Source: Candidatus Peribacteria bacterium (GTDB lineage: Bacteria; Patescibacteriota; Gracilibacteria; UBA1369; 2-02-FULL-48-14). Taken from it: DNA of 53,370 bases. Positions 1-26,509 of this stretch are shown piece by piece; the first letter of the stretch is position 1, and each line of letters opens with the position of its first letter. Made by a program: the position numbers and the translations under genes. The notes under the pieces were generated by a model. That model worked only from the letters and a program-made list of their open reading frames with translations, made no database searches and was not told the DNA's origin. The stretch is from the NCBI GenBank assembly GCA_943357175.1, contig CALRGE010000012.1, positions 1 through 53,370 of the forward strand, in the 5' to 3' direction.

Positions 1-218
1 ATTGCATCTCCAAGGCCAATACTTTCAAGTGCAAGTTTTTCAAAATCACGAAACTTCGCTTCCCCATCAAGCTTAAAAATTTCAGAAACACTTGCTCTAC
101 CGGAAAGTTTCAAAGTCAAATCATCGACTTCAACTAGCGGTAAATCTAAAATTGCAGAAAGTTTTTTTGAAACTTCAGTTTTTCCTGAGCCCATGAATCC
201 TATCAAAATTATTTTCAT
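1..218 (-). CDS. aroK: Shikimate kinase, 3' end cut by window edge
   Basis: Phosphorylates shikimate to shikimate-3-phosphate with ATP, the step before AroA. The visible 72 residues start MKIILIGFMGSGKTEVSK, with a P-loop GFMGSGKT at about residues 7-14. The acidic VEVDD segment (about 30-34) and KFRDFE (about 55-60) match the shikimate-binding Asp and Arg positions of the family. The ATG at 216-218 overlaps the TGA of aroA in an ATGA, so it is translationally coupled as the last visible gene of the trp/aro operon. The C-terminal half, including the lid, is outside the window. Confidence 0.9.
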   Translation of the reverse strand, partial: MKIILIGFMGSGKTEVSKKLSAILDLPLVEVDDLTLKLSGRASVSEIFKLDGEAKFRDFEKLALESIGLGDA

Positions 219-1363
219 AAAATTTTCACTTTTAATGACTTCAAAACCTCAAAAAAATCCGGAAAAGATTTACTAACAACATCAGGGTTTTGAATTAAAA
301 TTCCCGGGACTTTTAATCCGGCAATCGCAAAGGCCATAGCAATTCTATGATCACCATGTGGATCAATCAAAGCCCCATGTGCTTTTCCACCATGAATTTT
401 CATAAAATCCTTAGCAGTTTCAACTTTAATTCCCATTTTTCTAAGCTCACCGGCAACACACTCAATTCTATTCGATTCTTTAAATGCGAGAGTTTCCAAA
501 CCGTACAAATGAGTTTCACCTTTAGCAAAAGCCGCCATCACAGCAACTGTTGGAACAATATCAAGACAGTTCTTCATGTCAAAAGCGGATTCTCCGGAAT
601 TTATTATTGTCTCAAAAACAACATCGCCTTGTTTCGAATTTTTATTCAGTCCAATTATTTTCACTTTACTAGCCGTAAGCGCATTTAGTGCAATGAAATA
701 ACTAGCCGCACTTGCATCACCCTCAACAGTATAAGTTTTACAAGAGTACTCGCCACTAACCTTAAAATTCTTGTAATTTTTATTTATAACTTCCACGCCA
801 AAGTCCTTCATTATTTCAATAGTCATATCAACAAAAGGCTTCGAGGACAGTTCGCCATCAACTTCAATCTCAAAACCACATTTCGGCGCAATCATCAAAA
901 GTGCCGATAGAAATTGACTGCTCACATCACCCTTAACTCGCACAATACCGGAATTTAAAGTGGAAGATGAAACACATAGTGGTAGAAAACCATCCTTATC
1001 TAAATATTCAATCTCAGCACCCAAACTTCGAAGAGCATCTACCAAATCTGTCATAGGTCTTTTTTTGAAAGCCTCATCACAGGTTATTATTTTTTTGCTA
1101 GGCGAGATACAAGCCAAAGCCAAGATTGTTCTGGCAGTTCTACCGGACAATCGAACATTCAATTCACAATCTCCAATACTCAGTTTTTTCAAACAATCTG
1201 TCATGGCGTACGTGTCATCACATTTAGCTGAATTTAAAATTTCAACGGGGCCGTCAGTCAAAAATGCTAAAGCCAAAGCACGAGTTGTATAACTCAAACT
1301 TCCGGGCAGATTTACAATACCCTCAAGTGGAGCTGTTACCGGAATTATTTCAATTGTTTTCAT
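215..1363 (-). CDS. aroA: 3-phosphoshikimate 1-carboxyvinyltransferase (EPSP synthase), divergent
   Basis: Transfers enolpyruvate from PEP to shikimate-3-phosphate. Family motifs seen are RPMTDLVDALRSLGAEIEY, DVSSQFLSALLM, GDASAASYF, the DIVPTVAVMA Asp, FKESNRI, GDHRIAMAFAIAG and SKSFPDFFEVL. It has 382 residues, shorter than the usual 420-450. Near the N terminus the text is LPGSLSYTTRAL where the family has LPGSK-x4-RAL, so the PEP-binding Lys (Lys22 in E. coli) is Leu here. The later LGNAGT-type loop reads LSGRTART, keeping Gly and Arg but not Asn. The remaining active-site residues are kept, so it is probably a divergent enzyme rather than a decayed one. It overlaps aroB by 14 nt and aroK by 3 nt. 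Confidence 0.9.
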   Translation of the reverse strand: MKTIEIIPVTAPLEGIVNLPGSLSYTTRALALAFLTDGPVEILNSAKCDDTYAMTDCLKKLSIGDCELNVRLSGRTARTILALACISPSKKIITCDEAFKKRPMTDLVDALRSLGAEIEYLDKDGFLPLCVSSSTLNSGIVRVKGDVSSQFLSALLMIAPKCGFEIEVDGELSSKPFVDMTIEIMKDFGVEVINKNYKNFKVSGEYSCKTYTVEGDASAASYFIALNALTASKVKIIGLNKNSKQGDVVFETIINSGESAFDMKNCLDIVPTVAVMAAFAKGETHLYGLETLAFKESNRIECVAGELRKMGIKVETAKDFMKIHGGKAHGALIDPHGDHRIAMAFAIAGLKVPGILIQNPDVVSKSFPDFFEVLKSLKVKIL

Positions 1364-2396
1364 AATTCAATGCTTCAATTATTATTTTTTCATCAACTTC
1401 CATGTTGTAAATCGCTCGGCCCAAGGCTTTAAGTAAAGTGAAATTAATTCGACCAGATTCATTTTTTTTATCAAATAGAATTTTTTTTAAGATTCTTTCT
1501 GTATCTAACTGAACAGGTTTTACTATTTTTCTTAAAAATCCATCAATAATCAAAAAATCTTTTTTATTAAGTAAACCGGAAATATAAGAAATCCTATTTT
1601 CAACAATCATTCCAAGAAAAATAGCTTCACCGTGTAAGAGTGGTTTTGGATTCTCCAAACTCAAAGCCTCAATTGCATGACCAATCGTATGCCCAAAATT
1701 TAAAATCTTCCTTACATTTTTTTCTTGCGGATCAGCGGCAACAATTTTTGCTTTAATTTGGCAAGATCTTTCAATTATTTTTTCCAATTCAGAATCGGAA
1801 AATTTCAAAGTCGACCTTAAGGTCGAAAAATATTTTTTATCAAAAATTAATCCGTGTTTAATTATTTCTGCAAATCCGGAAAGATATTCTCTCTCCGGCA
1901 AAGTCTTCAAAAGATCTACATCAATAATCACTCCGATTGGATTTTTAAAAGTTCCAACAAGATTTTTCACACCTGCAAAATTAATACCTGTTTTGCCTCC
2001 AATACTCGCATCAACTTGCGCGAGCAGAGTTGTGGGAATCTGCAACACATCGAGGCCGCGCATATAAATCGATGCCGCAAACGACGATGTGTCGCAAATA
2101 TTTCCACCTCCCAAATTCACAACAAGCGTTTTTCTATCCGCCTTCATATCATGCAATTTATTCAGAATTAATTCAACACTTTGAAAGTTTTTATGATTCT
2201 CGCCTGAAGGCAATGAAATATGAGAAGCTTCAAGTTTAAGATTGAAAAGTTTGGAAGTATTTTCATCACTAACAATTAAAATTTGACTATATCCGGCCAG
2301 ATCAATTAGCTTAGGAATTTTCCCAATCAAAGCACGGCCGATAAAAATCGGATATTCTTTTACTGTACGCCGAGTTGGTATAATTAATTTTTTCAT
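1350..2396 (-). CDS. aroB: 3-dehydroquinate synthase
   Basis: Cyclises DAHP to 3-dehydroquinate, using NAD and a divalent metal. It has 348 residues, the normal length. Visible motifs are GGGNICDTSSFAASIYMRG (NAD site), PTTLLAQVDASIGGKTGIN, KNPIGVIIDVDLLKTLP, and the metal ligands in SGFAEIIKHGLI (Glu), NFGHTIGHAIEAL (His) and LLHGEAIFLG (His). It starts 4 nt after the DAHP-synthase stop and overlaps aroA by 14 nt. It uses the product of the DAHP synthase encoded just upstream in the same operon. Confidence 0.95.
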   Translation of the reverse strand: MKKLIIPTRRTVKEYPIFIGRALIGKIPKLIDLAGYSQILIVSDENTSKLFNLKLEASHISLPSGENHKNFQSVELILNKLHDMKADRKTLVVNLGGGNICDTSSFAASIYMRGLDVLQIPTTLLAQVDASIGGKTGINFAGVKNLVGTFKNPIGVIIDVDLLKTLPEREYLSGFAEIIKHGLIFDKKYFSTLRSTLKFSDSELEKIIERSCQIKAKIVAADPQEKNVRKILNFGHTIGHAIEALSLENPKPLLHGEAIFLGMIVENRISYISGLLNKKDFLIIDGFLRKIVKPVQLDTERILKKILFDKKNESGRINFTLLKALGRAIYNMEVDEKIIIEALNYENN

Positions 2397-2399
2397 ATT

Positions 2400-3146
2400 T
2401 TATGTCTCTAATAAGTCATCAAACTGATCCCATGTCAACTGTTGCTTCGCGTCTGTAAGAGCGCATGAAGGATCGTGATGCACCTCAATGATCATACCAT
2501 CGAAGTCGAAATTTTGTGATTGCCTTGTGATTTTAAGAACATTTGGCACAGATCCGCCTGTGTGAGAAGGGTCAAACAGCATTTTCAATCCGGTAGATTT
2601 TTTTACCTCCATAGCCATATGAAAATCAGGAACATTTCTGTAATTTTCAGGGTTTTCTGGGCCTGGAGTAAAACCTCTGTGACAAACAATTAGGTTTTCT
2701 CTATCAATTCCACCTGAAAGCGCATGTTCGACTATACCTTCCCAATGCTCTTTACTAAACCAAGGTTGATTTTTGAGCATCAAAGTCACTCTTTTATTTG
2801 AAGCCGCCAATCTAGCAATTTCTCGTTGAATAAAGTGATTTTGATTTCTCGAACCAATCCATATCATGAGTTTGCCAGTTTCAGTGGCAGCCATAACCGC
2901 ATCAATAATTTTCTTCGCATCCTCAGGCGAAGTTACTTCTGTTGCAGGGTTCACTCCTCTCTTCGCGGCCTCAACCAAAATTGGAATACCGGCCTCTCCC
3001 AAACCTTCAAAACCGGGTTTTGTTCGTGGTTTATATAGTGACAAACGCACAAAATCAACTCCGCGGTCCTTAGCGTTCTGACCAGCAATCATAGCCTGCA
3101 CTTCGTTTTCAAGCGCACAAGGTCCTGCAATAATTATTTGAGGAAT
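2400..3146 (-). other. DAHP synthase domain with possible independent ATT start
   Basis: This is the C-terminal enzyme part of the 573-residue frame. If it is made separately, no ATG, GTG or TTG lies close before the essential IIIAGPC motif. An AGGAGG at 3156-3161 sits 9 nt before an in-frame ATT at 3144-3146, a rare initiator known from infC, and would give a 248-residue enzyme overlapping the end of the TrpR-like gene by 13 nt. Another choice is an in-frame ATG at 3273-3275, preceded by GGAG at tight spacing, which would add an odd 43-residue extension. Which start is used, if any, cannot be settled from sequence. Confidence 0.4.
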
Positions 3147-4121
3147 TTTAGAAATCCTCCTGTTCCGTATTTCAAAATTCTCGCTCCTCTCGAAACTTTC
3201 GCTATGCTCGTTTTGAACTCCTGAGCAACAGCTCTCTGACTCTTTCCTTCCTTTAATCCCTTCACAATTTGCCATCGCTCCGAGATTGAGTCCAATTCCT
3301 GAGGTGTCAGCAAATCCGAAAGAAGTTCTTCCGCTTCCTTGTTTGTTTTTACTTTGACGACCAAATCGTAGAGATCTTTGTGGAAATTCATGAGCAGATT
3401 CTAACATATCATCTAGAAATGCACGAACCGCATTTTCACCATCTTTATACAAGTCCAAAATCTTGCTTCCTATAACAGCGATATCCGCAAATCCATCAAT
3501 TGTCTTTAAATGATCGACAGAAGAAATGCCAAAACCAACCGCAATCGGCAACTTGCAAGTTGCATTTACTCGCTCTAAATATTTTTGCAGATTCGAATCT
3601 AGATCTTTTTTTGCACCGGTTATACCTGTTCTAGCCATACTATAAACAAAACCCCTAGCCAATTTCGCAATTTTTTTCATTCTTAAATCAGTGGTCATTG
3701 GCGAAATAACCTGAATCGAATTAAGCCCATATTTTTTGCAAAGAGAAAGATAATGTTCTTGAGACTCTTCATCAAAAGGCAAATCAGGAATAATCAATCC
3801 TTCACAAGAATATTCTGCAGCTTTTTTGCAAAAATTTTCCAATCCATAAACAAAAGGAATATTAAAATAAGTCATCAAATAAATCGGAATTTTTATTTTT
3901 CCTTTTAAGCTTCGCAGTAATTCGAAACAATCTTCAACACTAGTTCCATTCTCCAAAGAAACTCGATTCGCCTCCGCAATAGTTTTACCATCAGCAACAG
4001 GATCAGAAAAAGGAATTTGAATTTCCAAAATTGAAACTCCGGAATCCGCCATTAAAATAGCTAAATTTTCTGATGCTTTTAAGCTTGGATAGCCCGCCAC
4101 AATGTGAGTCATTAATTTCAT
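2400..4121 (-). CDS. trpA: Tryptophan synthase alpha chain in frame with a DAHP synthase domain (573 residues)
   Basis: One uninterrupted frame with two enzyme parts. Residues 1 to about 244 are TrpA, which makes indole from indole-glycerol-phosphate: ILEIQIPFSDPVADG carries the catalytic Glu, GLIIPDLPFDE the catalytic Asp, and VGFGIS is the phosphate loop. Residues about 326-573 are a type I DAHP synthase of the kind fused to chorismate mutase in Bacteroidetes: IIIAGPCALE, LYKPRTKPGFEGLGE, WIGSRNQNHF, HRGFTPG, LFDPSHTGGS and IEVHHDPSCALTDAKQQLT. The roughly 80 residues between have no recognisable fold and are read from the same DNA as the TrpR-like gene in another frame. There is no in-frame stop between the two enzymes, so translation from the trpA start gives a fusion. 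The third frame has a TGA within an ATGA at 3388-3391, exactly where TrpA should end, so a one-base indel (real or an assembly error) is the main alternative. It overlaps trpB by 4 nt. Confidence 0.8.
   Translation of the reverse strand: MKLMTHIVAGYPSLKASENLAILMADSGVSILEIQIPFSDPVADGKTIAEANRVSLENGTSVEDCFELLRSLKGKIKIPIYLMTYFNIPFVYGLENFCKKAAEYSCEGLIIPDLPFDEESQEHYLSLCKKYGLNSIQVISPMTTDLRMKKIAKLARGFVYSMARTGITGAKKDLDSNLQKYLERVNATCKLPIAVGFGISSVDHLKTIDGFADIAVIGSKILDLYKDGENAVRAFLDDMLESAHEFPQRSLRFGRQSKNKQGSGRTSFGFADTSGIGLNLGAMANCEGIKGRKESESCCSGVQNEHSESFERSENFEIRNRRISKIPQIIIAGPCALENEVQAMIAGQNAKDRGVDFVRLSLYKPRTKPGFEGLGEAGIPILVEAAKRGVNPATEVTSPEDAKKIIDAVMAATETGKLMIWIGSRNQNHFIQREIARLAASNKRVTLMLKNQPWFSKEHWEGIVEHALSGGIDRENLIVCHRGFTPGPENPENYRNVPDFHMAMEVKKSTGLKMLFDPSHTGGSVPNVLKITRQSQNFDFDGMIIEVHHDPSCALTDAKQQLTWDQFDDLLET
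3134..3391 (-). CDS. trpR: TrpR-family tryptophan repressor, nested out of frame
   Basis: It has 85 residues with the TrpR core LLTPQELDSISERWQIVKGL, then a helix-turn-helix GKSQRAVAQEFKTSIAKVSRGARILK. This follows E. coli TrpR ([45 protein letters not shown]). The residues matching E. coli Thr44, Arg54 and Arg84, which contact the tryptophan co-repressor, are kept; the Ser88 position is Ile. It starts at the ATG of an ATGA exactly at the expected end of TrpA and ends 10 nt before the conserved DAHP-synthase motif, but its frame differs from both. A TrpR-like operator lies over the operon promoter at 9650-9667, so it probably represses its own operon. The related YerC family is less similar over the helix-turn-helix. 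Confidence 0.8.
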   Translation of the reverse strand: MNFHKDLYDLVVKVKTNKEAEELLSDLLTPQELDSISERWQIVKGLKEGKSQRAVAQEFKTSIAKVSRGARILKYGTGGFLKFLK

Positions 4122-5344
4122 ATTTGTGTTTTTAAAAAGTTCTTAAAATTTTCCGAGTCCAACTCTTTAGCGACTATAAATAAATCTTTATCTCCTCTGC
4201 CAGAACAGTTGAAAACAATGATTTTTTCCTTCGGCAAAGTGGCCGCCAATCGAATTGCCTCTGCAACAGCATGAGAAGATTCCAATGCAGCAAAAATACC
4301 TTCCTCTTTTGCCAACAGTTGATAGGCATTCAATACATCAGAATCTAAAGCATAAGAAGTTTTAATTCTTCCTATATCTCGCAAATAAGAAATCTGTGGT
4401 CCTACTCCGGAATAATCTAAACCGGCTGAAATGCTGTGAGTATTTTTAATTTGACCATCTTCATTTTGAAGAAAAAACGATTTAAAACCTTCCGTAACAC
4501 CAAGAGTTCCAGTTTCAAACCTCGCCGCATGTTCACATTTTTTTGAATCTTCAGTAATGCCTCTACCTCCGGCTTCAACACCAATCATCTCTAACGATTT
4601 ATCATCAAGAAATTCATAGAATAAACCCATTGCATTACTTCCTCCACCCACGCTCGCAATCAAATAATCCGGAGTGATTTGTTTTTTAACCTCCCGCCCG
4701 ATAACACTTTGAAAATAAGCATTCATCACAGGATAAGGATGAGGTCCACAAACCGTTCCCAAAAGATAATGCGTATTTAGTGGATCACTCATTAAATCAC
4801 GAAGGGCAGCGCTAATTGCATCCTTCAAAGTTCTTCCACCTTCAAGAACCGGAATAACTTTTGCTCCAGCCCTTTCCATAAAAAATACATTTGGTTTTTG
4901 GCGTAAAAAATCTTTTTCACCCATATAAATTGTGCAAGAAAATCCCATTTTTGCAGCCACAGCCGAAACAGCCAAGCCATGCTGACCCGCGCCAGTTTCA
5001 GCAATTAATCTGGTTTTACCCAAACGCTTTGCCAAAAGTGCCTGACCAAGACAGTGATTAATTTTATGAGCACCTGTGTGCGCCAAACCTTCATTTTTAA
5101 GATAAATTTTTGCCCCACCAACCTTTTTTGTAAGATTTTCACAAAAATAAAGCGGCGTAGGTCTACCTGTATAATTCTTATTAAGATTGGACAATTCAAG
5201 CTTAAAATCTTTATCTTTTATCGCTCGATAAAACTCAAGTTCAAGGTTTTCCATAATTGGAATTAAAGTTTCAGGAATGTATCTACCTCCGTAAATTCCA
5301 AAATGACCGCTACGATTCAAAATGTATTTTTTTAATGATTTCAT
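4118..5344 (-). CDS. trpB: Tryptophan synthase beta chain
   Basis: PLP enzyme that condenses indole with serine to give tryptophan. It has 408 residues, the normal TrpB1 length. Motifs are GRPTPLYFCENL, HTGAHKINHCLGQALLAKRLGK (Schiff-base Lys in HKIN), AETGAGQHGLAVS (catalytic Glu), the phosphate loop SVGGGSNAMG, and the C-terminal FNCSGRGDKDL. The start overlaps the TrpGDCF stop by 4 nt and its stop overlaps the trpA start by 4 nt, which suits equimolar production of the alpha-2 beta-2 complex. Confidence 0.97.
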   Translation of the reverse strand: MKSLKKYILNRSGHFGIYGGRYIPETLIPIMENLELEFYRAIKDKDFKLELSNLNKNYTGRPTPLYFCENLTKKVGGAKIYLKNEGLAHTGAHKINHCLGQALLAKRLGKTRLIAETGAGQHGLAVSAVAAKMGFSCTIYMGEKDFLRQKPNVFFMERAGAKVIPVLEGGRTLKDAISAALRDLMSDPLNTHYLLGTVCGPHPYPVMNAYFQSVIGREVKKQITPDYLIASVGGGSNAMGLFYEFLDDKSLEMIGVEAGGRGITEDSKKCEHAARFETGTLGVTEGFKSFFLQNEDGQIKNTHSISAGLDYSGVGPQISYLRDIGRIKTSYALDSDVLNAYQLLAKEEGIFAALESSHAVAEAIRLAATLPKEKIIVFNCSGRGDKDLFIVAKELDSENFKNFLKTQI

Positions 5345-8145
5345 ATTTTTAGAATTGATAATAATTTTTTCCTGTCAAAAACTCCGTCAGTCTCAACCCC
5401 ACTTGCAATGTCGATTCCCATTGGACCTACTTCTTCAACAATTTTTTTAAAATTAGAGGGATTAATTCCACCGGCCAAGAAAAATGGTTTTTTAAAATTT
5501 CTCAAAAATTTATGATTAAATAATTTTCCGGAACCAGGCTCTTCACCATCAAAAAGTACGACAGACCCGGCATCATAAAATTTCGCTGCCAATTTCACAT
5601 CATCACGAATAGTTTTTATAACCGGTCGAACACACTTCCTTACAAAATCTAAACTTTCATTTCCGGATAACTGAATAAAATCAAGGTTTAAAACCTTCGC
5701 AATTTCATTCACATATTTCAAACTTTGGTTCTGAAAAACTCCGACACATTTTGTTTTTTTTAACTTTTTTCTAATTTTAATTGCAGACTTTAAATCAATA
5801 CATCTTTTCGATTTCCGCACAAAATTAAGTCCCACAAAATCCACTCCGTTTTTTTCACAAAATGCAGCATCTTCCACCTTGCGAATACCGCAAATCTTTA
5901 TACTCAAACCACGAAGTTCTTTCATTTTCTCCTCAGGATTTTCCGAAGTCATCAATGTAGTGCCAACTAAAATAGCATTTATATTTGCCGGCATCGCAAT
6001 AATATCTTCACGCGATTTAACTCCACTTTCCGAAATTATAATTTTATCATTCGGAATCATTGATGCTAATCGATCAACTGTGCTCAAATCTATCTTAAAA
6101 GTTTTTAAATCTCGATTATTTATTCCTATAATTTTTGCATTACATCTCAAAACCTTCTTAATCTCCACTTCGTTATGAACTTCACAAATTGCCTCCATCC
6201 CTAAATCTTCGGCAATGCTTAAAAACCGTTGAATTTGTTTCTCCGTTAGAATCGATGCAATTAGTAAAACTAGATCTGCATTATTCTTGCGAGCTTCAAA
6301 AATCTGGTATTCATCAATAATAAAACCCTTGCAAAGCACTGGAAGATCACCGGCCAACTTACTAACTTTTTTAAGATCAACAATCGAACCAGCAAAATGT
6401 TTTTCATTTGTGAGTACAGAAATAGACGAAGCTCCACCTTTAATATATGCAGTAACTTGATTTTTAAGTGAAAAATCTAGACCTGTCAAAATTCCTTCTG
6501 AAGGAGATTTTCTTTTTATTTCTGCAATAATTGCTTTCTTAGAAATAGCTAATGCTTTTGAAAAACTTTTATTACCAGGAGAAAGATCTTTTAATAAAAC
6601 TTTTCTCTTATCCAAAGATTTCTTCTCTTCACTCAGTATATTTAAATAAGCCGGATTCAAATCTGACAGCAACTTAAATTGATCAAATGTTTCTTGCGCC
6701 AAAACTCCCTTTGCAAGTTTGTATCCGTCCTTCAAGGTTTTAGCATTTCCTGCAAGTTTCAAAGCTAAAGCTGTATTTATCAAAACCAAATCAAGATGTC
6801 CTGATTTACATTTACCACTCAAAATTTCCTTAGCAATACGCGTATTAATGTTTACATCTCCACCTGCAATTTCTTCAAAATTCGCCGGTTTAACTCCGAA
6901 ATCTTCAGGTGAAATGGTATATTTCTTGATTTGTCCATTAAGCAACTCAACAACATATGTTTTACCGGTTAATGTAACTTCATCTAAACCATCCTCACCA
7001 CAAACAATAAACACATGTTTTTTTCCTAAAAGTTTACAAGTTTCAGCAATTAGTTCCATTTTTTCACGGAAAGCCGTACCTATAATTTGAGTATCAATTT
7101 CGATAGGATTCAAAAGTGGGCCGAGCAGATTAAAAAAAGTAGGAACCGCAATTTTTTTTCTTATTTCTGCAAACTCTTTAAGTAAAGGGTGAAAATTCTT
7201 CGCAAAAATAAAACAAAGATTTTTAAGTTCGAAAATCGATTCCAAGCCTTCCCTATTCAAATCGAAACTAATTCCTAATCCCTCCAAAAGATCAAAACTT
7301 CCACACCTTCCACTCGCCGCTCTGTTCCCATGCTTTGCAACTTTCACACCCAATGCAGCTAAAATAAAGGCTGAAATAGTTGAGGTATTAATTCGATTCA
7401 AACCTGATCCACCCGTCCCACAAATATCAATTGCATTCTTAATTTCAATTTTTTCGGAAATTTTACCGCGCAAAAACTGCACCGCTTCAAATAATTCTTT
7501 CGCAGTAAAATCTTGTTTATTTCTTAAAAATCTTTCCTGTTCCGGCACATTCCCCTCCAAAAAATCTTTAAGTGTAAAAACATATTTTTCAAGAAAATTC
7601 ATTATGATTTTATAACCGGCATTATCTCTCATTGTAAGTACAGATTCAGGATGGAACTGAACTCCCTCGATCGGCAAAGTCTTGTGCCTCATAGCCATAA
7701 CAAGATCACCATGCGTAGCCGAAACCTCAAAACAATTCGGTGCGATTTCCGCTGCTAAAGAATGATAACGACCGGCAAAAAAATCTTGTGGAATATCCTT
7801 AAAAATTGATTTTCCATCATGATGAATTGGAGAAGCCATTCCATGAACAGGTTCAACAAATTTCAAATTAGCTCCAAAAAATTCAACAAATGCCTGATGC
7901 CCAAGACAAATCCCAAGCATCGGATATTTTTTATAATATAAGCCAATAATTTTAAGCATATTACCTGCATTTTTTGGAATTGATGGCCCGGGTGAGAATA
8001 CAATCGCATCAGGTTTAATTTCATCAATTTTTTCAAAATTAACTGTATTGCGACAAACCAGAACCTCACATCCGGCCTTCTTAAAATATTCAACCAGATT
8101 GAATGTGAATGAATCGAAATTATCAATAATTAATATTTTTTTCAT
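5341..8145 (-). CDS. trpGDCF: Four-enzyme fusion TrpG-TrpD-TrpC-TrpF
   Basis: A single 934-residue frame carries four steps of tryptophan synthesis. Residues about 1-192 are the glutamine amidotransferase TrpG: IDNFDSFT, nucleophile Cys in GICLGHQA, and His/Glu in GVQFHPES. About 193-512 are anthranilate phosphoribosyltransferase TrpD: DICGTGGSG, NRINTSTISA and KHGNRAASGRCGSFDLLE. About 515-758 are indole-glycerol-phosphate synthase TrpC: IIAEIKRKSPSEG, SVLTNEKHFAGS, IIGINNRDLKTF and IISESGV. About 759-934 are phosphoribosylanthranilate isomerase TrpF: IKICGIRK (general-base Cys), the LFDG Asp, FFLAGGINPSN and GIDIASGVE. The order follows the pathway, apart from F acting before C. G-D and C-F pairs are common, and fungi have G-C-F; all four in this order is unusual. 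It overlaps trpE and trpB by 4 nt each, and no domain looks broken. Confidence 0.95.
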   Translation of the reverse strand: MKKILIIDNFDSFTFNLVEYFKKAGCEVLVCRNTVNFEKIDEIKPDAIVFSPGPSIPKNAGNMLKIIGLYYKKYPMLGICLGHQAFVEFFGANLKFVEPVHGMASPIHHDGKSIFKDIPQDFFAGRYHSLAAEIAPNCFEVSATHGDLVMAMRHKTLPIEGVQFHPESVLTMRDNAGYKIIMNFLEKYVFTLKDFLEGNVPEQERFLRNKQDFTAKELFEAVQFLRGKISEKIEIKNAIDICGTGGSGLNRINTSTISAFILAALGVKVAKHGNRAASGRCGSFDLLEGLGISFDLNREGLESIFELKNLCFIFAKNFHPLLKEFAEIRKKIAVPTFFNLLGPLLNPIEIDTQIIGTAFREKMELIAETCKLLGKKHVFIVCGEDGLDEVTLTGKTYVVELLNGQIKKYTISPEDFGVKPANFEEIAGGDVNINTRIAKEILSGKCKSGHLDLVLINTALALKLAGNAKTLKDGYKLAKGVLAQETFDQFKLLSDLNPAYLNILSEEKKSLDKRKVLLKDLSPGNKSFSKALAISKKAIIAEIKRKSPSEGILTGLDFSLKNQVTAYIKGGASSISVLTNEKHFAGSIVDLKKVSKLAGDLPVLCKGFIIDEYQIFEARKNNADLVLLIASILTEKQIQRFLSIAEDLGMEAICEVHNEVEIKKVLRCNAKIIGINNRDLKTFKIDLSTVDRLASMIPNDKIIISESGVKSREDIIAMPANINAILVGTTLMTSENPEEKMKELRGLSIKICGIRKVEDAAFCEKNGVDFVGLNFVRKSKRCIDLKSAIKIRKKLKKTKCVGVFQNQSLKYVNEIAKVLNLDFIQLSGNESLDFVRKCVRPVIKTIRDDVKLAAKFYDAGSVVLFDGEEPGSGKLFNHKFLRNFKKPFFLAGGINPSNFKKIVEEVGPMGIDIASGVETDGVFDRKKLLSILKI

Positions 8146-9530
8146 ATAGGCTGTTTTAAAATTGAAGTAAAAGCTGCGGCTTTATTAATTATTTCTTCAT
8201 ATTCAGCGGATGGATTCGACTGATTCAACAAAGTCGCGCCGACTCTAAACTTCAAATGTCCATTTTTTATATGGGCAGTTCTGATCAAAATCGCAGTATC
8301 CATTTCACCGGAAAAAGTGAGATATCCAATAGTTCCACCGTAATAACCCCTTCTTTCTGTTTCATATTTTTCAATCAGATTCATAGCGGCTACTTTAGGT
8401 GCTCCTGTTAATGTTCCGGCATTCAAACATGCAAACAGAGCATCTAAAGCCGTAAATTCATCAGCTAACTCACCTTCAAGATGAGCGATTGTATGCATTA
8501 CCTTCGAATATTTTTCAACAAATCGATAATCACTAATTTTAATGTCCGGTTTACAAACCTTACTCAAATCATTACGACCAAGGTCAATTAACATATCTAA
8601 TTCAGACCTTTCTTTAGGATCACACAAAAGTTTTAACATGTTTTCATGATCTTCAATCAAATCATTTCCACGCTTTGCAGTACCTGAAATCGGCCTCATT
8701 TGAACTCGTTTTCCTTCAACTTTAAGCATCATTTCAGGAGAAGCTCCAACTAATTGTTGATCAACAAAATCAAAATAAAACATGTACGGAGAAGGGCTGG
8801 CCTCACGATAAGTCTCATATAAAGCATAAGGATCTCCAAGAAACTCAGCAGTCAATAAATTTGAAAAAACCACCTCAACAATCTCACCACGTTTACAATA
8901 ATCTTTGGCAACTTCCACAAGAGCTTCATATTTCTCACGTGATAATTCAAATTGAACATTTTTTAGCTCAAAACTTTTTGATTCAATCTTTAAATACTTT
9001 TTAACAGACTTTAAGTCTTTAACAATTTCCTCCTTATCTTCTCTATATAAAATAAGCTCATTATCAAATAAAAACGTGTCGAAAAGGAAAAAATCAAAAT
9101 CATTTACATCATTCTCAGGCAAAATCTTCAGAATACTTTCAAAGTGCCTGACAAAATCATAACTAAAGGCGCCATACAAACCAAAAAGTACTTTCTTTTC
9201 CTGCTTGAAAAGCTCTAAAACTTTCCTAAGCACAAAGGAAATATTTTTCTGTTTATATCTGTCTTTCTCTTCAAAGGCAAAATTAGATTCTAAACTTTCG
9301 CCAGCCAAAGCCACATCAATAATATCTTTAAATCTCTTCCCTCGTTCATTTAAAATTTCTATAATAAAATCATTATTTTTGCCTGTGATTCTCAAAACAG
9401 GATCAATGCCCTTCATGCAATTTCCCTTGAACTCATAAATAAATTGACCTTTTAAAGATTGAAAAAACTTATTTGTATCTTGAAATCGCGCCTCTATATA
9501 ACCTTGAATCTTTTCGTATTTGACTTTCAT
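8142..9530 (-). CDS. trpE: Anthranilate synthase component I
   Basis: Converts chorismate to anthranilate with ammonia from the TrpG domain of the next gene. It has 462 residues. The chorismate-binding domain shows VGASPEMMLKVEG, MRPISGTAKRG, DPKERSELDMLIDLGRNDL, KVMHTIAHLEGEL, NAGTLTGAPKVAAMNLIE, RRGYYGGTIGYL and the C-terminal EYEEIINKAAA. The pairing with TrpG in one operon favours TrpE over PabB. No Shine-Dalgarno sequence is visible before the ATG at 9528-9530, which lies just downstream of the attenuator U-tract. Its stop overlaps the trpGDCF start by 4 nt. Confidence 0.95.
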   Translation of the reverse strand: MKVKYEKIQGYIEARFQDTNKFFQSLKGQFIYEFKGNCMKGIDPVLRITGKNNDFIIEILNERGKRFKDIIDVALAGESLESNFAFEEKDRYKQKNISFVLRKVLELFKQEKKVLFGLYGAFSYDFVRHFESILKILPENDVNDFDFFLFDTFLFDNELILYREDKEEIVKDLKSVKKYLKIESKSFELKNVQFELSREKYEALVEVAKDYCKRGEIVEVVFSNLLTAEFLGDPYALYETYREASPSPYMFYFDFVDQQLVGASPEMMLKVEGKRVQMRPISGTAKRGNDLIEDHENMLKLLCDPKERSELDMLIDLGRNDLSKVCKPDIKISDYRFVEKYSKVMHTIAHLEGELADEFTALDALFACLNAGTLTGAPKVAAMNLIEKYETERRGYYGGTIGYLTFSGEMDTAILIRTAHIKNGHLKFRVGATLLNQSNPSAEYEEIINKAAAFTSILKQPI

Positions 9531-9549
9531 AAAATTTAATTTAAATAAA

Positions 9550-9577
9550 AAAACCTCACCAATGACGGAGAGGTTTT
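9550..9577 (-). terminator. Attenuator terminator of the trp operon
   Basis: On the minus strand AAAACCTC pairs with GAGGTTTT, extended by a CC/GG pair past a T-T mismatch, with a GTCATT loop. The T-run continues on the minus strand to 9547. It ends about 17 nt before the trpE start codon. Its 5' arm and loop (CCGTCA at 9563-9568) can instead pair with TGACGG at 9593-9598. Confidence 0.85.
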
Positions 9578-9598
9578 AAAAAAACAGCTCACCCGTCA
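9563..9598 (-). promoter_or_regulatory. Antiterminator pairing (mutually exclusive with the trp attenuator)
   Basis: On the minus strand TGACGG (9598-9593) is an exact complement of CCGTCA (9568-9563), and the following GTGAG can extend onto CTC of the terminator 5' arm. The TGA of the leader peptide is the first part of this segment. A ribosome that finishes the peptide would cover it and let the terminator form. A ribosome stalled on the two Trp codons 13 nt upstream would leave it free. Confidence 0.75.
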
Positions 9599-9637
9599 CT
9601 CAATTTTTGTCCACCAAATTGTTGTTTTCTTGTTCAT
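9596..9637 (-). CDS. trpL: trp leader peptide MNKKTTIWWTKIE
   Basis: A 13-codon frame with tandem Trp codons at positions 8-9, ending TGA. It lies between the trp promoter and the trpE attenuator. It closely parallels E. coli TrpL (14 residues, WW at 10-11). Its role would be to sense charged tRNA-Trp by ribosome stalling rather than to make a functional protein. There is no Shine-Dalgarno sequence; from the inferred promoter the 5' leader would be only about 14 nt. Confidence 0.88.
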   Translation of the reverse strand: MNKKTTIWWTKIE

Positions 9638-9649
9638 AAGGATTATTAT

Positions 9650-9667
9650 GTACTAGTACATTAGTAC
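9650..9667 (-). promoter_or_regulatory. Putative TrpR operator over the -10 box
   Basis: The minus-strand sequence GTACTAATGTACTAGTAC has perfect outer arms GTACTA/TAGTAC and matches 14 of 18 positions of the E. coli trp operator GAACTAGTTAACTAGTAC, including a full ACTAGTAC half-site. It covers the -10 hexamer at 9658-9663, as in E. coli. A TrpR-like gene is encoded in the operon it would control. Confidence 0.78.
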
Positions 9668-9686
9668 AGCTGAATTAAAAAGTCAA
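9658..9686 (-). promoter_or_regulatory. trp operon promoter
   Basis: TTGACT (9681-9686) and TAATGT (9658-9663) are separated by 17 nt on the minus strand, directly downstream of the previous gene's terminator. The same -10 hexamer and spacing occur before the gene at 38066. Predicted transcription start is near 9651. Confidence 0.75.
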
Positions 9687-25447: not shown

Positions 25448-26509
25448 TTATTTGTCAGCGGCTAATTTTCTTGTTTGATCTTCCAAAATCAAGGAATCGA
25501 CAATTTGATCTAAATCGCCATCCATAATTCCTGGTAAATTACTAAAGTTTTTCCCAATTCTGTGATCAGTAACTCGGTCTTGTGGAAAGTTATAAGTCCG
25601 AATTTTATCAGATCTATCTCCACTTCCAATTTGTGAAAGTCTCGCCTCTCCCAAAGCCTTTGCTCGTTTATCTTCCTCCAAAGCATATAAACGCGAGCGC
25701 AAAACTCCCATCGCTTTTATCTTATTTTTGAGCTGAGATTTTTCATCCTGACAAGAGACAACCGTATTCGTCGGCAAGTGAGTAATTCGCACAGCCGAAT
25801 CTGTTGTATTAACGCTCTGTCCACCGTTTCCACTTGATCGATAAACGTCAATTCTCAACTCATTCTCAGCAATTCTCAACTCAAATTCCTCAATTTCTGG
25901 CAAAACCACAACCGAAGCCGCAGAAGTATGAACTCTTCCCTTCGACTCAGTTTCCGGAATCCTCTGAACACGATGCACTCCACTTTCGTATCTCATTCTT
26001 CCATATGCACCTGGCCCAATAACCTTAAAAATCATTTCCTTCATTCCCTTTTCACCAGGACTTTGACTAATAATTTCAGCCTTATATTTTTTTTCTTCCA
26101 CATATCTTAGATACATTCTATCTAGCTCCTCCGCAAAAAGATTTGCCTCTTCCCCACCTGTTCCAGCACGAATTTCCATAATACAATTTCCGGAATCTTT
26201 TGGATCTTTCGGCACCAATTCAATTTTCAATTCTTCAGTAATTCTTTCAAGTTGTTCGGTGGAAGCTTTCAATTCTTCTTTTGCCATTTCTCTAAGCTCA
26301 TCATCATCACCTGTCATAATTTCTCTACTTTCCTCAACAGACTTTTCATATTTTTTCATCTCCCTAAAAAGGCGCACCGCTCCTTCAATTTCCCTTCTAC
26401 GAGCCAACATTTTTTGATATTTCGGCTGGTCAGAAATCACTTCCGACTTCATCATTTCTTCTTCTAAAACGCTGAATTCTTCTTCTAATTTTGCTAACTT
26501 TTCATTCAT
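25448..26509 (-). CDS. prfA: Peptide chain release factor 1
   Basis: It has 353 residues. It has the GGQ motif in [20 protein letters not shown] (peptidyl-tRNA hydrolysis) and the stop-recognition tripeptide region [19 protein letters not shown], where PET stands for the usual PAT and defines RF1 (UAA/UAG). It starts 1 nt after the stop of prmC, whose product methylates the GGQ Gln. Confidence 0.96.

Follow-up and report, generated by a model that had tools for sequence, protein, structure and literature searches.

A complete trp/aro operon was found on the minus strand of the window (the whole 53,370-nucleotide stretch of Candidatus Peribacteria DNA that was analysed), with the gene order trpE, trpG-D-C-F, trpB, trpA-DAHP synthase, aroB and aroA. 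The trp leader element is located on the same strand in front of trpE, where the features follow each other 5' to 3' on the minus strand in the order SLH-gene terminator, TTGACT, operator-like site, leader ORF, antiterminator arm, terminator hairpin with its T-run, and trpE. The annotated features are the following.

9717-9694, minus strand: terminator of the upstream SLH-domain gene, separate and strong
9681..9686, minus strand: possible -35 box TTGACT; TAATGT, 17 nt on and inside the operator, would be a weak -10 box
9650..9667, minus strand: TrpR operator-like site GTACTAATGTACTAGTAC, the sole exact GTACTANNNNNNTAGTAC in the 1.23-Mb genome
9596..9637, minus strand: leader peptide ORF encoding MNKKTTIWWTKIE, with tandem Trp codons TGGTGG at 9616-9611 and stop codon TGA at 9598-9596; counterparts occupy the same place in 15 relatives
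9588..9600, minus strand: antiterminator 5' arm AGTGACGGGTGAG, which includes the leader stop codon and has its core in common with the terminator 3' arm
9560..9572, minus strand: antiterminator 3' arm CTCTCCGTCATT(G), overlapping the terminator 5' arm and loop
9552..9575, minus strand: intrinsic terminator hairpin AACCTCTCCGTCATTGGTGAGGTT, read as AACCTC t CCG TCAT TGG t GAGGTT, with 9 pairs and -10.6 kcal/mol
9547..9551, minus strand: T-run TTTTT of the terminator, continuous with the TT that closes the 3' arm and followed by ATTT
8142..9530, minus strand: trpE, anthranilate synthase component I, the first structural gene (Pfam Chorismate_bind, Anth_synt_I_N)
5341..8145, minus strand: fused trpG-trpD-trpC-trpF, a single ORF of 934 aa carrying four enzyme domains (Pfam GATase, Glycos_transf_3, IGPS, PRAI)
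4118..5344, minus strand: trpB-type gene for a PLP-dependent enzyme (Pfam PALP), assigned by its operon position between trpF and trpA
2400..4121, minus strand: trpA and a DAHP synthase domain in one ORF (Pfam Trp_syntA, DAHP_synth_1)
3134..3391, minus strand: trpR, 85 aa (Pfam match), in another frame within the trpA-DAHP synthase ORF
1350..2396, minus strand: aroB, 3-dehydroquinate synthase
215..1363, minus strand: aroA, EPSP synthase

The ORF that wholly encloses trpR is free of stop codons over 573 aa. Either trpR is a true overlapping gene within a fused enzyme gene, or the trpA stop codon was lost or an indel is present in the assembly.

The initial annotation had described a complete trp attenuator, and every part that it claimed was found on the minus strand. 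The 13-codon frame with tandem Trp codons is present at 9637-9596 (ATG AAC AAG AAA ACA ACA ATT TGG TGG ACA AAA ATT GAG TGA), although inspection of the window sequence revealed no Shine-Dalgarno sequence ahead of its start. The leader stop codon indeed lies within the antiterminator 5' arm, as TGACGG (9598-9593) begins with it, and the hairpin is followed by TTTTT and by the trpE start at 9530. UGA recoding, which occurs in some Gracilibacteria and would abolish the leader stop, was considered and rejected, as RF2 (prfB) is present in the genome and genes of the operon end in TGA, so that TGA is read as a stop. A prfB-family release factor gene at 25448-26509 on the minus strand scored below the RF2 cutoff and is possibly prfA.

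Upstream of the leader, a consensus scan found no promoter and the hexamers are weak; the position of the transcription start is one that we infer from the sequence. The operator pattern GTACTA-N6-TAGTAC occurs at the promoter, and its half-sites are almost those of the E. coli trp operator, GAACTAGTTAACTAGTAC in the E. coli locus (L159). Related palindromes are located 5' of trpR in most relatives and are exact in two of them (G018 and G047). In the alignment, the ligand-contact residues T44, R54, R84 and G85 of E. coli TrpR have their equivalents in the window protein; positions T81 and S88 differ. Since a unique perfect operator overlaps the promoter and trpR is part of the operon, TrpR-Trp likely represses the promoter through this operator beside attenuation, which would amount to dual control. 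The genome also has a second Trp_repressor-family gene (C2:83112), which was rejected as the TrpR of the operon because it is presumably of the YerC type, judging from its sequence.

Competing helices in the window leader

The antiterminator and the terminator of the window are mutually exclusive as they compete for the same bases, with the 5' bases of all nine terminator pairs being shared with the antiterminator. Two details of the initial annotation had to be redrawn. CCGTCA, which had been placed within the terminator 5' arm, is inside the hairpin, but its CCG forms the upper stem and its TCA belongs to the loop. The proposed pairing of TGACGG with CCGTCA exists but is longer, joining AGTGACGGG.GAG with CTC(T)CCGTCATT and thereby also taking the CTC of the lower 5' arm. 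The resulting antiterminator of 16 bp is tied for the most pairs among the 16 leaders described below.

Statistics from the window by itself are borderline, both for the antiterminator duplex (-15.9 kcal/mol; shuffle p = 0.06) and for the fold (z = -1.6). Among 222 ordinary terminators from fetched loci, about 7% have an upstream duplex that is equally strong, mostly in GC-rich genomes. The window sequence alone thus makes a case for more than chance that is suggestive at most.

The part of the leader ahead of the terminator has a folding energy of only -5.6 kcal/mol, and the protector pairing has a mean probability of 0.31. A strong protector (1:2) hairpin was not found on folding the window leader, where it is absent or weak. 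The earlier description of three RNA segments thus holds for the window, whereas two relatives (L078 and L079) do carry strong protector hairpins.

The effect of ribosome position was modelled at equilibrium by keeping the bases under a ribosome footprint unpaired and stepping the footprint through the codons one by one. With this masked folding, the terminator probability is about 0-0.3 at the Trp codons and 0.46-1.0 past them in 11-12 of the 16 leaders, with L062 reaching only 0.46-0.69 past its Trp codons. In the window the values are 0.81-0.87 with the ribosome on Trp and 0.97 when it has moved on to the stop codon, and L004, L061 and L080 are likewise without a clean equilibrium switch. 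The E. coli trp leader, run as a control in the same crude model, gave 0.95 and 0.96; as this leader is also unswitched at equilibrium, the masked-folding test does not discriminate. Since the completed terminator of the window is the favoured structure even while the ribosome occupies the Trp codons, switching there must be kinetic, and the reading of the window is based on folding of the growing transcript and on the comparison with relatives. When the growing transcript was folded with a ribosome placed on the second of the Trp codons, a 15-bp antiterminator formed once CCGTCA was made, and this helix lasted until the terminator 3' arm was nearly complete. No comparable antiterminator was observed in the growing window transcript when the ribosome had reached the stop codon.

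Conservation in relatives and linkage to trpR

Orthologous trpE was found in 24 of the 353 genomes of the class, and also in records named as Peregrinibacteria, Gracilibacteria and other Patescibacteria, which agrees with the earlier view of the source as a CPR-like genome. A total of sixteen leaders (window included) have Trp codons directly 5' of an antiterminator, followed by a terminator, a T-run and trpE; the set represents 15 of the 24 class genomes and one more, all of the Peregrinibacteria/Gracilibacteria type. The leaders were picked manually from the regions 5' of trpE and their terminators were placed by eye, and all the relatives compared are metagenome assemblies.

Trp codons occur in all sixteen leaders, with one to four per leader, and are located in short ORFs or in TrpR tails. 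Examples of the leader peptides are MIRTNTTWWNWNQKSRF (L061), MTRNNKNWWWINTSEQLRR (L063), MNWWWEDHMIRRF (L070), MIKNLRKNWWNNLIALL (L069) and MNIASKMWWWNEDLM (L083), and a single Trp codon was observed in L065, L075 and L080. An intrinsic terminator with a U-run precedes the first structural gene in every case. The terminator 5'-arm cores are distinct in each of the sixteen leaders without the loss of either helix in any of them, as within a leader the terminator 3' arm is near-identical to the antiterminator arm and each is complementary to the terminator 5' arm (GAGTCG/CGACTC/GAGTCG in L061; GAGGT/ACCTC/GAGGT in L069). The number of nucleotides common to both hairpins ranges from 4 to 9 per leader, with 9 in the window. 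Many of the cores keep GAGG-CCTC-GAGG, a recurrence that points to common descent of the leaders.

As the leaders are too divergent for column alignment, the arms were swapped among species in a permutation test. The duplexes formed by the leaders' own arms total -226.7 kcal/mol, compared with -197.4 kcal/mol for the best of 200,000 random re-pairings (0/200,000 match), in a test which assumes that related sequences are exchangeable and which is conservative because leaders share cores. The mean duplex energy is -14.2 kcal/mol for own arms and -8.2 kcal/mol for foreign arms, and the window's own partner ranks first of 16 in both directions. Judged from these sequences, the comparison at the family level puts the switch far beyond chance. 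The conserved Trp codons and compensatory changes that the initial annotation had proposed to look for in relatives keeping trpE were thus both found, across the sixteen leaders, and they support its reading of a ribosome-stalling attenuator.

Nine of the 24 class orthologs of trpE showed no leader on inspection of their upstream regions, and in most of these trpR abuts or overlaps trpE. Seven such genomes (L066, L068, L072, L073, L076, L077 and L082), with trpR directly abutting or overlapping trpE, seem to rely on TrpR alone. In a more distant Patescibacteria trpE locus that surfaced in the null scan (L094:4671-4739), an upstream ORF encoding MQNLTNKIWPSFYFTDYSSRRA, with one Trp and several aromatic codons, precedes a GCCGGCG/CGCCGGC antiterminator and a terminator. 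No trp-type leader was seen at the TrpRS/TyrRS-family tRNA synthetases of the window's genome in the stretches inspected.

The initial annotation had recognised the attenuator but not the TrpR operator located at the promoter, the presence of trpR in the operon or the linkage of trpR to the leader in relatives. In these relatives trpR is located at the operon head, behind the related palindromes. In nine of the 16 leaders (ATGA type) the trpR stop codon and the leader ATG overlap by 4 or 8 nt, and in two the stop codon lies 5-10 nt ahead of the ATG, whereas the leader stands alone in the window and in L079. In the remaining three (L062, L065 and L075), the Trp codons are found in a C-terminal extension of TrpR, with the antiterminator and terminator next, so that the repressor gene appears to serve as its own leader peptide; this fused type requires three separate changes on the TrpE tree. 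A common plan of TrpR, sensor ORF, attenuator and trpE, with repeated loss and fusion, seems to underlie these arrangements. We consider it fairly probable that repressor and attenuator sensor form one translational unit in this class, either by re-starting after trpR (nine leaders) or through the Trp codons in the TrpR tail (three fused leaders). If so, read-through into trpE would depend on tryptophan being sensed by the translation of TrpR itself. Among the features of the system this coupling, with its putative function, is the most unusual, and no published precedent for it, fusions included, was found in the open-access literature searched.

Proposed mechanism and comparison with known systems

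We interpret the element in the window as a ribosome-mediated transcription attenuator of the trp operon that works together with TrpR repression, with an estimated probability of about 0.9. The ribosome would follow RNA polymerase along the leader during transcription and, when charged tRNA-Trp is scarce, would stall at the two Trp codons. The stall would leave the arm AGTGACGGGTGAG free to pair with CTCTCCGTCATT once this is made, taking the terminator 5' arm, and with the antiterminator formed transcription would enter trpE. When Trp is plentiful, the ribosome would instead reach the TGA inside the arm AGTGACGGGTGAG and cover the arm, thus allowing the terminator to form. This scheme presumes translation of the leader peptide, a working terminator and Trp as the signal. 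TrpR-Trp at the operator probably represses the promoter at initiation. In most relatives the sensor ORF would be translationally coupled to trpR or is the TrpR C-terminus itself, whereas the window has a detached leader with trpR downstream in the operon.

The hairpin could alternatively be constitutive, terminating part of the transcription that starts at a leaky promoter, with the Trp ORF and the antiterminator pairing having arisen by chance, and the borderline statistics of the window (p = 0.06, z = -1.6, about 7% of ordinary terminators equal) would permit this. However, sixteen leaders keep their Trp codons and both pairings in different sequences, none of the 200,000 permutations equals the observed pairing, and the upstream gene is already closed by the strong terminator at 9717-9694. 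At the family level we regard this explanation as refuted by the cross-species test, and we give it almost no credence for the window. A switch operating without ribosome stalling, through a riboswitch ligand, a tRNA (T-box) or a TRAP-like protein, is very improbable. Pairs of antiterminators and terminators are common to all such mechanisms and the leaders of the relatives are more structured, but no Rfam riboswitch or T-box was found in the stretch, either at the gathering cutoffs or up to E = 10, and no aptamer sequence is conserved across the sixteen leaders. In addition, Trp codons are kept just 5' of the antiterminator arm in all of them and the masked folding turns within a few codons.

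It is also conceivable that the RNA switch is real but decaying in the window, where TrpR repression alone would now control the operon. The relocation of trpR downstream, a TrpE branch length of 1.01 that is among the longest, an equilibrium switch weaker than that of most relatives and the nine orthologs without a leader, most having only trpR and the operator, would be consistent with such a decay. All the window elements are nevertheless intact, including the 16-bp antiterminator and the -10.6 kcal/mol terminator, and we consider this outcome unlikely.

None of the Rfam leader families (Trp_leader, Phe_leader and others) reached its gathering score, the best being Phe_leader with 18.2 bits against a cutoff of 55, and the Trp_leader covariance model gave no match at the gathering cutoff or up to E = 10. 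A survey from 2010 described leader-peptide attenuation, to its authors' knowledge, as recorded only in Proteobacteria and Actinobacteria and added one case from bacilli (PMC2965389), and we found no earlier report of amino acid attenuators in Patescibacteria in the open-access literature searched. The element in the window would be a known kind of attenuator in an unexpected lineage, and the form fused to trpR in the relatives would be a new variant.

In Chlamydia trachomatis, trpR is also located at the head of the trp operon (trpR-IGR-trpBA) and a trpL was once proposed behind it. However, the TrpL proposed there is considered doubtful (PMC7755916). It is described as a 59-aa peptide that lacks tandem Trp codons and attenuates poorly, with YtgR acting in its place, whereas the tandem codons, antiterminator and terminator are clear here. 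The trp attenuators of actinobacteria (Corynebacterium, Streptomyces) contain Trp codons in doublets or triplets, and their three-way core reads gGCC-rGCy-GGCC (PMC1262725). They resemble the present leaders in having multiple Trp codons and a three-way complementary core common to both hairpins, but the core here is often GAGG-CCTC-GAGG and varies by genome with compensation, and TrpR and an operator are present.

The E. coli trpL region (NC_000913.3) shares with the window the tandem Trp codons in a short ORF, one arm common to antiterminator and terminator, a T-run, trpE as the first gene of the operon and a TrpR operator that overlaps the promoter with nearly the same half-sites. The window differs in being without a strong 1:2 protector, its leader folding at -5.6 compared with -22.7 kcal/mol in E. 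coli, and in having the stop codon inside the antiterminator arm. Its trpR is in the operon, whereas that of E. coli is elsewhere, and a sequence relation between the two leaders is not detectable. An E. coli-like dual control in Patescibacteria, which are streamlined and for the most part uncultivated, suggests that tryptophan is made and finely regulated in some of these cells. The sixteen leaders also amount to natural rewrites of a single RNA switch in which the changes are compensatory.
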